DNA of 64,000 nucleotides, taken from Anaerolineae bacterium. Its GTDB lineage: Bacteria; Chloroflexota; Anaerolineae; Anaerolineales; Anaerolineaceae. The notes under the pieces were generated by a model, which was not told the DNA's origin, did not search any database, and saw only the letters and a list, made by a program, of their open reading frames with translations. Within the stretch, counting starts at the first letter, position 1, and each line of letters opens with the position of its first letter. Positions 56,525-59,194 of this stretch are shown here, in pieces. The stretch is from NCBI GenBank assembly GCA_013314735.1, contig JABUFD010000001.1, positions 930,001 to 994,000 of the forward strand. The letters are read 5' to 3'. The position numbers and the translations under genes were made by a program.

Positions 56525-56553
56525 TTGACAAGTGAGATTAAAATGGCTATACT
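56525..56553 (+). promoter_or_regulatory. Near-consensus promoter of the tyrosine recombinase
   Basis: TTGACA (56525-56530), 17 bases, TATACT (56548-56553). The best sigma-70 promoter in the window; start point expected near 56560, within the inverted repeat that follows. Confidence 0.8.
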
Positions 56554-56557
56554 ATAG

Positions 56558-56584
56558 TTACTGATTATTTAAAGAAATCAGTAA
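56558..56584. repeat. Inverted repeat at the recombinase transcription start
   Basis: TTACTGATT and AATCAGTAA, 9-bp perfect arms with a 9-base AT-rich centre, placed across the expected start point and ending 23 bases before the start codon. It fits an operator or a recombinase-binding dyad. Confidence 0.6.
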
Positions 56585-56607
56585 ATATGATTAAATTTGA
56601 GGACCCA

Positions 56608-57684
56608 ATGGAACAAAAAGACCTGACAGACCAAAAGCATGAACATTCAAAATTGTCGGTTGTTACCAAAACAATGTTGTTGAATGAACGCATCGCACAG
56701 GCTGCAAACAATGCGGCAGCGCAATCACGATTTTCAGATTACCAACAGAGAAAATCCGATCAGACTTTACGCAGGCAACGGTCTGATCTGGGGTTATTTC
56801 AGGAATTTCTCGCATTTGTTGGTGTGCAAATTGATGTCCACTTATTTGAAGATGCGGCAGGATGGCGGTCTGTTTCCTGGGGTCTCGTGGAAAGTTTTGT
56901 TCGTTGGCAGCTTAAGGAAGGTTATGCGATTAACTCGATCAATGTCAGACTCTCTACTGTGAAAAGCTATGCGAAATTAGCCATGCAAAGTGGCTTCCTG
57001 TCTGCCGAAAGCTACGCCATGATTCGCGCGGTAACAGGTTTCGGACATAAGGAAGGCGTGCGGATTGACCAGCGACGGGAAAATGTGCGTGTTGGGCTAA
57101 AAAAAGAAGAGGCTGTTGTAATATCCCCCATACAGGCGGCATTATTAAAAGATCAGCCCAATACTCCTCAAGGCCGCCGTGATGTTTTGATGATGTGCTT
57201 ATTCCTGGACCATGGCTTGCGTGTCGGCGAAGTGGCCTCACTCATAACTACCGATGTAGATCTGCCGAACGGTTTGCTGGTGTTTTTTCGAGAAAAAGTG
57301 TCAAAAACGCAAAAGCACCGCATGAGTCGAGATACTCTGGATGCTTTGAATCGATGCGTGGCATATCATGACCTGTATATTGGTGGCCCCCCCCTCCCCT
57401 TGCTGCGGCGCAGTATGAAAAACAAAGAGTTATCTGCACATGGAATGAGCGAACGCGGCATAACGCATCGCGTTATGGTTCTGGGAAAACAAATTGGATT
57501 GCTTGGGCTCAGCGCGCATGACTGTCGGCATTATTGGGCTACTGCAGCTGCCCGACATGGCACTGATCCCTTTGTGTTACAGGAGGCGGGAGGCTGGGCT
57601 TCGCTGGCCATGCCACGTCGTTATATCGAGGAAAACGATATTGCCAACGCAGGGATTCGCTTAAACGATGATGCATATGAATAA
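56608..57684 (+). CDS. Tyrosine recombinase (phage-integrase family)
   Basis: 358 residues. An N-terminal SAM-like core-binding domain (about 50-160, LRRQRSDLGLFQEFLAFVGV) leads to the catalytic domain with the full set: Arg in DHGLRVGEVASL, Lys about VSKTQKHRMSR, HxxR in SAHDCRHYWATAA, Trp in GGWASLAMPRRY and the nucleophile Tyr after it. So it should be active. GAGG stands 5 bases before the ATG at 56608; an ATG at 56587 has none. It is not next to phage or plasmid genes. XerC/D-like length is about 300, so it has an N-terminal extension. Confidence 0.88.
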   Translation: MEQKDLTDQKHEHSKLSVVTKTMLLNERIAQAANNAAAQSRFSDYQQRKSDQTLRRQRSDLGLFQEFLAFVGVQIDVHLFEDAAGWRSVSWGLVESFVRWQLKEGYAINSINVRLSTVKSYAKLAMQSGFLSAESYAMIRAVTGFGHKEGVRIDQRRENVRVGLKKEEAVVISPIQAALLKDQPNTPQGRRDVLMMCLFLDHGLRVGEVASLITTDVDLPNGLLVFFREKVSKTQKHRMSRDTLDALNRCVAYHDLYIGGPPLPLLRRSMKNKELSAHGMSERGITHRVMVLGKQIGLLGLSAHDCRHYWATAAARHGTDPFVLQEAGGWASLAMPRRYIEENDIANAGIRLNDDAYE

Positions 57685-57689
57685 ACCAG

Positions 57690-57706
57690 GGTAAACGGCG
57701 TTTACC
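57690..57706. repeat. 17-bp dyad just after the recombinase gene
   Basis: GGTAAACG-G-CGTTTACC: perfect 8-bp arms about one central base, 5 bases past the stop codon, without a T run. Could be a recombinase core site or a regulator site. Confidence 0.5.
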
Positions 57707-57752: not shown

Positions 57753-57788
57753 AGAAAGCGACGGGCGATAAGTCACCCGTCGCTTTCT
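57753..57788. terminator. Terminator between the recombinase and repeat-protein genes
   Basis: 13-bp arms AGAAAGCGACGGG / CCCGTCGCTTTCT with a 10-base loop, between convergent genes; T-rich tails are short on both strands. Confidence 0.7.
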
Positions 57789-57814: not shown

Positions 57815-59194
57815 TCACTTGTTTGAGAACCAATCATAGGCATAGTATGGTCCGCTGCTTTGGAAGCGGATGGCGATCAAGTCGTAATCTACCAGCCCTG
57901 CAGGAATATCACAAACCACCTCAAAAGAACCGCCTTCACCAGAATTTATCGTTTTGATGTACGTACCGCCGACACCTTTGGTACCGAATGCGCCCATCGT
58001 AATATCAAAATTCGTATCTGGCGGAAAATTATGGGTTGTGATTGTTACTGAGACGCCAGGTGTAACTGATTTGATGGATGTGGTTGGAATTCCCGTATAA
58101 CCTGGAATCGTTTCATAAGTCGTTGGCTGGTTGACGAACCAGTCATATGCAAAGTAGCCACTCCCGTTATCCAATCGGATAGCGATCAAATGATTCTCAG
58201 CCAATTCTTCTGGGATGTCATAGGTAACATCAAATGAACCACCATCGCCTGAATCGGTATCTGCTACTTTAATTCCTCCAATTCCTCGTGTGCCAAATTC
58301 TCCCATTGTTACAGCAAATGTCTGATCAGGTGGGAAATTATAGGTGCGCAATGTCACACTCTCACCTGGAACAACATTGAGGATCGAAGTGGTTGGGATG
58401 CCAGTGTAACCTGGAATTGTTTCTTCAGAACTGCCAGGCTGATTCACAAACCAATCATAAGCATAATACCCTTCAGGACTTTGCAACCGGATTGCGATCA
58501 AGTGGTTATCTGCAAGACCTTCCGGAATGGTATAAGTCACTTCAAAAGATCCACCTGCGCCTGAATCTGTGTCTGCCACTTTGGTACCGCCAATACCACG
58601 GCTACCAAATTCTCCCATTGTAACGGAAAATATTTGATCAGGCGGGAAATTATGGGTGACAAGTGTGACTGATACGCCGGCTTCCACTGATTTGATTGTC
58701 GTCGTGGGGATGCCAACATAGCCGTTAATGGGCGTTGGTTCTTCTACGATTGGCTGGTTGTTGTCATTATTGTAAAACCAATCAAATGCGTAGTAACCGT
58801 GGGGGCTTTCCAGGCGGATCGCAATTTTATCTTCATCAAGCAGAGCTGCTGGGATTGTGAAGGTTTTTTCAAAGCTTCCTCCACTGCCAGACCCAAAGGT
58901 ATTGACGATGTATCCCGCGATTCCACGTGTTCCGAATTTGCCCATTGTGACAGTAAAAGTCTCTTCCGCAGGGAAGTCATAAGTGCGGATGGTGACAGAT
59001 GTGTCTTTCACAACGTCAACAATGCTGGTTGTGGGAATTGCTCCCGCGACGATAGGTTTGTATGTTAGCGGTACCAACAACACTGCTAACAGTAGACCGA
59101 TCACAATCTTATATACAAGTGATTTTTGTTTTATCCATTGAGTCAAAGTCCCACCTCCTGTGTTAGGGTTTAAAAAGTTAAGTGGTTTTTTCAT
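57815..59194 (-). CDS. Secreted protein with four ~100-residue repeats
   Basis: 459 residues. A basic N-terminus and hydrophobic helix (about 28-50, YKIVIGLLLAVLLVPLTY) precede four repeats starting near residues 53, 162, 266 and 369. Each opens IPTTSI, goes on through SVTLxTxNFPPDQxF and TMGEFGTRGIGG, then SGxGGSFxVTYxIP and ends IAIRLxSPxGYYAYDWFVN. All are beta-rich, probably Ig-like domains exposed outside. Repeats 2-4 are most alike. The family seems common in Anaerolineae but has no named domain that I know. No sortase or anchor motif at the C-terminus, so attachment is unclear. Confidence 0.85.
   Translation of the reverse strand: MKKPLNFLNPNTGGGTLTQWIKQKSLVYKIVIGLLLAVLLVPLTYKPIVAGAIPTTSIVDVVKDTSVTIRTYDFPAEETFTVTMGKFGTRGIAGYIVNTFGSGSGGSFEKTFTIPAALLDEDKIAIRLESPHGYYAFDWFYNNDNNQPIVEEPTPINGYVGIPTTTIKSVEAGVSVTLVTHNFPPDQIFSVTMGEFGSRGIGGTKVADTDSGAGGSFEVTYTIPEGLADNHLIAIRLQSPEGYYAYDWFVNQPGSSEETIPGYTGIPTTSILNVVPGESVTLRTYNFPPDQTFAVTMGEFGTRGIGGIKVADTDSGDGGSFDVTYDIPEELAENHLIAIRLDNGSGYFAYDWFVNQPTTYETIPGYTGIPTTSIKSVTPGVSVTITTHNFPPDTNFDITMGAFGTKGVGGTYIKTINSGEGGSFEVVCDIPAGLVDYDLIAIRFQSSGPYYAYDWFSNK

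Follow-up and report, generated by a model that had tools for sequence, protein, structure and literature searches.

A Cre-like tyrosine recombinase and a conserved 35-bp site probably form a single-recombinase dimer-resolution system in Chloroflexota

Introduction

Single-recombinase systems include XerS/difSL of Streptococcus and Lactococcus, XerH/difH, and XerA (PMC5357621). XerS/difSL comprises one tyrosine recombinase and one terminus site, often beside the recombinase gene (PMC5357621); difSL is 31 bp long and has an 11-bp centre with imperfect, unequal arms. XerL/dif of Legionellales combines a single recombinase with long uninterrupted inverted arms, a position near the skew maximum and, in one lineage, a plasmid-borne copy (PMC9765430). 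XerH/difH of Helicobacter and Campylobacter and archaeal XerA/dif likewise use a single recombinase. Cre/loxP of phage P1 and its relatives (Nigri/nox, Panto/pox) have 13-bp arms and a target site close to the gene; the Cre/lox site is 34 bp long with an 8-bp spacer, and the system is borne by phages or plasmids. From the phylum Chloroflexota, a survey of dif sites covered only three Dehalococcoides (PMC3025954). In a literature search mostly without subscription journals, we found no report of a one-enzyme dimer-resolution system in Chloroflexota and no description of dimer resolution in this phylum outside Dehalococcoides.

Here we analyse a tyrosine recombinase locus in a 64-kb stretch of DNA (hereafter the window; contig C9, positions 930001-994000) of an Anaerolineaceae genome of 4.09 Mb in 13 contigs. 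An initial annotation had read it as an autoregulated recombinase with sites around its own gene, perhaps a DNA-inversion or chromosome-resolution enzyme.

Results

The ORF at 56587-57684 (+) matched Pfam Phage_integrase (E = 1.3e-20). Its Pfam families are PF00589 and PF02899, and its domains are a SAM-like N-terminal and a catalytic C-terminal domain. Of the two possible starts, the first ATG, at 56587, overlaps the putative recombination site described below, and ATG 56608, with GAGG before it, is the likelier one. The catalytic set had been called complete, and all six residues (R205, K230, H304, R307, W330 and Y339) are indeed present and invariant in 58 homologues; the locus therefore has one tyrosine recombinase with a full catalytic set, as in single-recombinase dif/Xer systems. 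Against the equivalog models, the protein scored 61 bits for XerC (cut-off 335), 47 bits for XerD (cut-off 330) and 26 bits for XerS (cut-off 267). Being far below both the XerC and the XerD cut-offs, it does not belong to XerCD/dif by equivalog score.

Table 1. Features of the recombinase locus (coordinates within the window).
Feature	Position	Strand	Basis
Sigma-70-like promoter, TTGACA-17-TATACT, abutting the site	56525..56553	+	Consensus match only
Putative dif/lox-like recombination site	56554..56588	+	Conservation at orthologues, about one per genome, co-occurrence with the gene, near GC-skew maximum
Tyrosine recombinase gene	56608..57684 (alternative start ATG 56587)	+	Pfam, catalytic residues, AlphaFold2 model
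Short perfect dyad, GGTAAACGGCGTTTACC	57690..57706		Single copy in genome, absent at orthologues
16-bp hairpin between convergent genes, probable terminator	57753..57788		Strong hairpin

The AlphaFold2 model of the recombinase (mean pLDDT 91.5) was compared with known structures. The match to Cre covered most of the model (Z 20-21; about 290 residues aligned at rmsd 3-4, with ~16% identity between the superposed chains); XerA gave Z 21 and XerH Z 18. By sequence, the best PDB match was XerA. The predicted fold is thus closest to Cre and XerA/XerH. The enzyme has the Cre fold and catalytic set, including W at the second histidine position as in Cre, although this fold is common to the whole superfamily.

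The gene is single copy in its own genome. Of the tyrosine recombinase genes found elsewhere there, three are full-length and one is a fragment; the domains of these three also score under the Xer cut-offs. A 20-kb region of extreme GC skew (0.27; C11:180001-200000) has one of these further genes on either side, at C11:172 kb and 206 kb. Neighbours of the recombinase in the window encode a corrinoid protein, a homocysteine methyltransferase and a repeat protein. The last (57815-59194, minus strand) has 459 aa, apparently in four repeats of ~100 aa, and has no Pfam family over the cut-off.

The 9-bp inverted repeat noted earlier over the expected transcription start is real, but it is longer than claimed: the dyad spans 35 bp, ATAGTTACTGATT-ATTTAAAGA-AATCAGTAAATAT, with 13-bp arms differing by one mismatch and an asymmetric 9-bp centre. 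Dyads like it occur at five places in the 64 kb, versus none in three block shuffles. We scanned 100 homologous loci and found the site upstream of many of them, usually 50-200 bp before the gene and sometimes kilobases off. Several orthologues have arms and an asymmetric centre identical to those of the window site. The consensus of 37 distinct sites from genomes with the gene (carriers) is ATAACTTCTGATT-ATTTATACA-AATCAGAAGTTAT. In the outer five arm bases, which fall outside the search pattern, the two arms pair at 68% of positions, compared with 51% when right arms were reassigned (maximum 60% in 2000). At arm position 5/31, for example, the 37 sites show C-G 13 times, G-C 8 times, A-T 5 times and T-A 3 times. 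Such co-variation between left and right arms is what one would expect if the same protein bound twice to a symmetric site. In more distant homologues the arms differ (TAGACTCGTATAA in Chloroflexales) or are divergent (AATTTCGTATTA/AAATACGAAATT in Thermogemmatispora), and the centre of both is 7 bp.

Of 25 named genomes with the gene, 18 contain the site, and 16 of these have exactly one copy; the reversed pattern, used as a control, gave one match in the 25. We also searched 301 genomes of the order. At up to three mismatches, the site was present in 19 of 27 gene carriers and 7 of 274 non-carriers, the latter rate being near that of the reversed pattern. At up to one mismatch it was present in 15 genomes, all of them carriers, and in none of the 274 non-carriers. 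Part of this association is built in, since some carriers supplied the search pattern; others did not. These results point to a cognate palindromic site of the size expected for such systems (about 28-35 bp), one per replicon. Three close relatives of the recombinase (L042, L066 and L080) lie on contigs labelled Verrucomicrobia or Synergistaceae, which are probably mis-binned Chloroflexota.

The distance from site to gene ranges from about 0.1 to 52 kb, and in four genomes (Thermanaerothrix daxensis, C1 versus C3; G009; G262; G318) the two lie on separate contigs. Such variable spacing would suit an integrase or insertion hot-spot of integron-like or IMEX-like type, in which the site is an attachment site and DNA has been inserted between it and the gene. 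The intervening DNA examined, however, consists of chromosomal genes (VIT1-like, bacterioferritin-like and an oligopeptide ABC transporter) with no further sites, and the presence of mostly one site per genome leaves no att pair. A hot-spot is therefore very unlikely and is largely refuted already; an integron or cassette array was rejected on the same ordinary gene content. The separation bears equally on whether the dyad serves the gene as an operator or RNA hairpin and nothing more. Its place over the +1 region of a promoter close to consensus would suit that role, but several genomes keep a single conserved site kilobases or a contig away from the gene, and the site has the terminus position described below, so that we give this explanation very little credence.

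The promoter-like sequence TTGACA-N17-TATACT matches the consensus at 11 of 12 positions. It had been ranked the best promoter in the window, where three further sites score equally well (11/12); weaker promoter-like sites at 50-64 kb number 22, against a shuffled expectation of 22.0. Downstream of the gene, the reported 17-bp perfect dyad is present as 8-1-8 (GGTAAACGGCGTTTACC), but it is not conserved, and similar dyads are at about chance level (two in the window, zero to one in shuffles). A scan of the whole genome found one occurrence of it only, and eight orthologues have no counterpart after the stop codon. The downstream dyad was accordingly rejected as a second recombination site. Beyond it, the strong 16-bp hairpin is likely the terminator. 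Of the sites once placed around the gene, only the upstream one stands, the downstream dyad being absent from orthologous loci, an outcome that the initial annotation had itself named as refuting. A self-regulating DNA invertase that acts on sites surrounding its gene would be in keeping with an upstream dyad that overlaps the expected transcription start; yet it would need two inverted flanking sites, whereas the genome has one site and the downstream dyad is unrelated in sequence, unconserved and single copy. With one site per genome, DNA inversion is scarcely credible.

Contig C9 carries dnaA and one FtsK-gamma gene and is therefore chromosomal. Its GC skew is positive over 0-990 kb and negative over 1000-1320 kb, with a maximum at about 1000 kb; the site, at 986.6 kb, is about 13 kb from the sign change. 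T. daxensis has positive skew across 1.33 Mb, with the sign change lying 1.5 kb from the site; the gene is on another contig. For these two genomes windows of +/-9 kb are unexceptional compared with other places, and their case is the megabase-scale skew. The skew turns 1.6-7.6 kb from the site in five further genomes (G070, G072, G068, G082 and G067) and at most 0.4 kb from it in two Thermogemmatispora species. On a complete 212-kb plasmid of Leptolinea HRD-7, the site (73.1 kb) and the skew maximum (79.0 kb) are 6 kb apart, and the skew minimum (191.1 kb) adjoins a ParA/Soj gene. In all of these replicons, most of the genomes compared being MAGs, the site is at the replication terminus as read from skew. 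It is away from the plus-to-minus change in G071/L061, G027/L056, L070, Dictyobacter (L075) and Ktedonobacter (L085), and the skew of G032 is flat; in five or six carriers, then, site and skew change do not coincide. As an origin marker dnaA was discarded, the gene of our genome (C9:498 kb) not being at a skew change. The idea that the skew flip fixes the orientation of the site was also dropped, because a terminus runs from plus to minus on either strand. An FtsK gamma domain is encoded in 61 of 61 genomes of relatives, most of the order having two such ftsK genes (in our genome C12:102781 and C9:587187). No clear candidate for KOPS-like octamers emerged from about 0.5 Mb sampled.

The gene is carried by only 9 of the 61 relatives, so most of the order must resolve dimers otherwise. 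As to a canonical XerC/XerD pair, none of the 61 has a XerD equivalog over the cut-off, and other, unassigned tyrosine recombinases are present. About two thirds of them have one order-wide type, represented by the L373 protein (G006:C14:12334-13257): its orthologues are about 330 aa long and roughly 48-73% identical, and in detail they are unrelated to the window recombinase. This type is a candidate standard Xer for Anaerolineales. Six of the nine carriers have it as well; our genome, T. daxensis and G032 have the window type without it. Strict replacement of one by the other was thus rejected, and a remnant tyrosine recombinase gene at C9:836981 gave no support for being a decayed copy of the order-wide type.

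In Leptolinea the module is on a plasmid in strain HRD-7, and the carrier L. tardivitalis has the order-wide enzyme as well. The HRD-7 plasmid (AP024711.1; L092, L408) also bears a type I-C CRISPR-Cas locus. Viral contigs from IMG/VR (L120-L139) encode relatives of the window recombinase at about 38-54% identity; terminase or portal-like genes were confirmed on L127, L135 and L139, and several of the contigs have lox-like dyads upstream of the recombinase. These homologues, Cre among the best structural matches, and the sporadic carriers, six of nine holding another order-wide recombinase, speak for a P1-like plasmid or phage Cre/lox that is now a chromosomal relic or passenger and whose native job is extrachromosomal multimer resolution. 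A relic, however, would not retain a single conserved site at the maximum of the skew after separation from the gene, as in T. daxensis. The flanking genes in the window are also those of ordinary metabolism, and the order-wide recombinase is missing from three carriers (our genome, T. daxensis and G032). We regard such an origin without a present chromosomal role as improbable.

Discussion

The recombinase and its 35-bp site very probably constitute a single-recombinase system for the resolution of replicon dimers. This reading is based on a conserved, mostly single-copy site that co-occurs with the gene and lies at the terminus, together with the catalytic residues of the enzyme and its predicted fold. 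The chromosome-resolution part of the initial annotation is hence strongly supported by the conserved single-copy site, gene co-occurrence and terminus position.

The locus shares with XerS/difSL one recombinase and one terminus site often beside the gene, but its 13-bp arms and 9-bp centre differ from those of difSL. All the features listed above for XerL/dif recur here, in another phylum; that likeness is drawn from description. XerH/difH and XerA/dif are alike in the single recombinase and the structural match, and their sites too were set beside ours by description, the window site having long, near-perfect 13-bp arms and a 9-bp centre. The resemblance to Cre/lox is striking: arm length, proximity of target site and gene, and predicted fold agree, and the consensus half-site matches that of loxP at 10 of 13 positions. 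The 35-bp site with its 9-bp centre is nevertheless unlike the 34-bp lox site with its 8-bp spacer, and the window gene is on a chromosomal contig, at the terminus, not on a phage or plasmid. The 9-bp centre and the low identity argue against membership in Cre/lox.

We infer that the enzyme binds and recombines the site, that it depends on FtsK and that it regulates itself, as follows. Homologous recombination would fuse sister chromosomes into a dimer, in which the 35-bp terminus site is present twice. At each site a pair of recombinase monomers would bind, one on either of the symmetric 13-bp arms; the two sites would then synapse, and tyrosine-mediated strand exchange across the asymmetric 9-bp centre would yield two monomers. 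A gamma-domain FtsK could juxtapose the sites at the septum. Enzyme bound at the site may limit its own synthesis; autoregulation is plausible because the site covers the expected transcription start.

This work provides a named gene and a 35-bp site as candidates for dimer resolution in Chloroflexota, and adds a single-recombinase solution beside XerS, XerH, XerA and XerL. The many new recombinase/site pairs with divergent arms are possible tools for genome engineering. In a wider proposal, to which we give an even chance, a chromosomal Cre/lox-type system is the dif/Xer of several Chloroflexota lineages (Anaerolineae and Ktedonobacteria) with plasmid and phage relatives. Dimer-resolution modules would have passed among phages, plasmids and chromosomes as the site arms diverged with the enzyme. 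The system described here would also tie Cre-like enzymes to chromosome maintenance.
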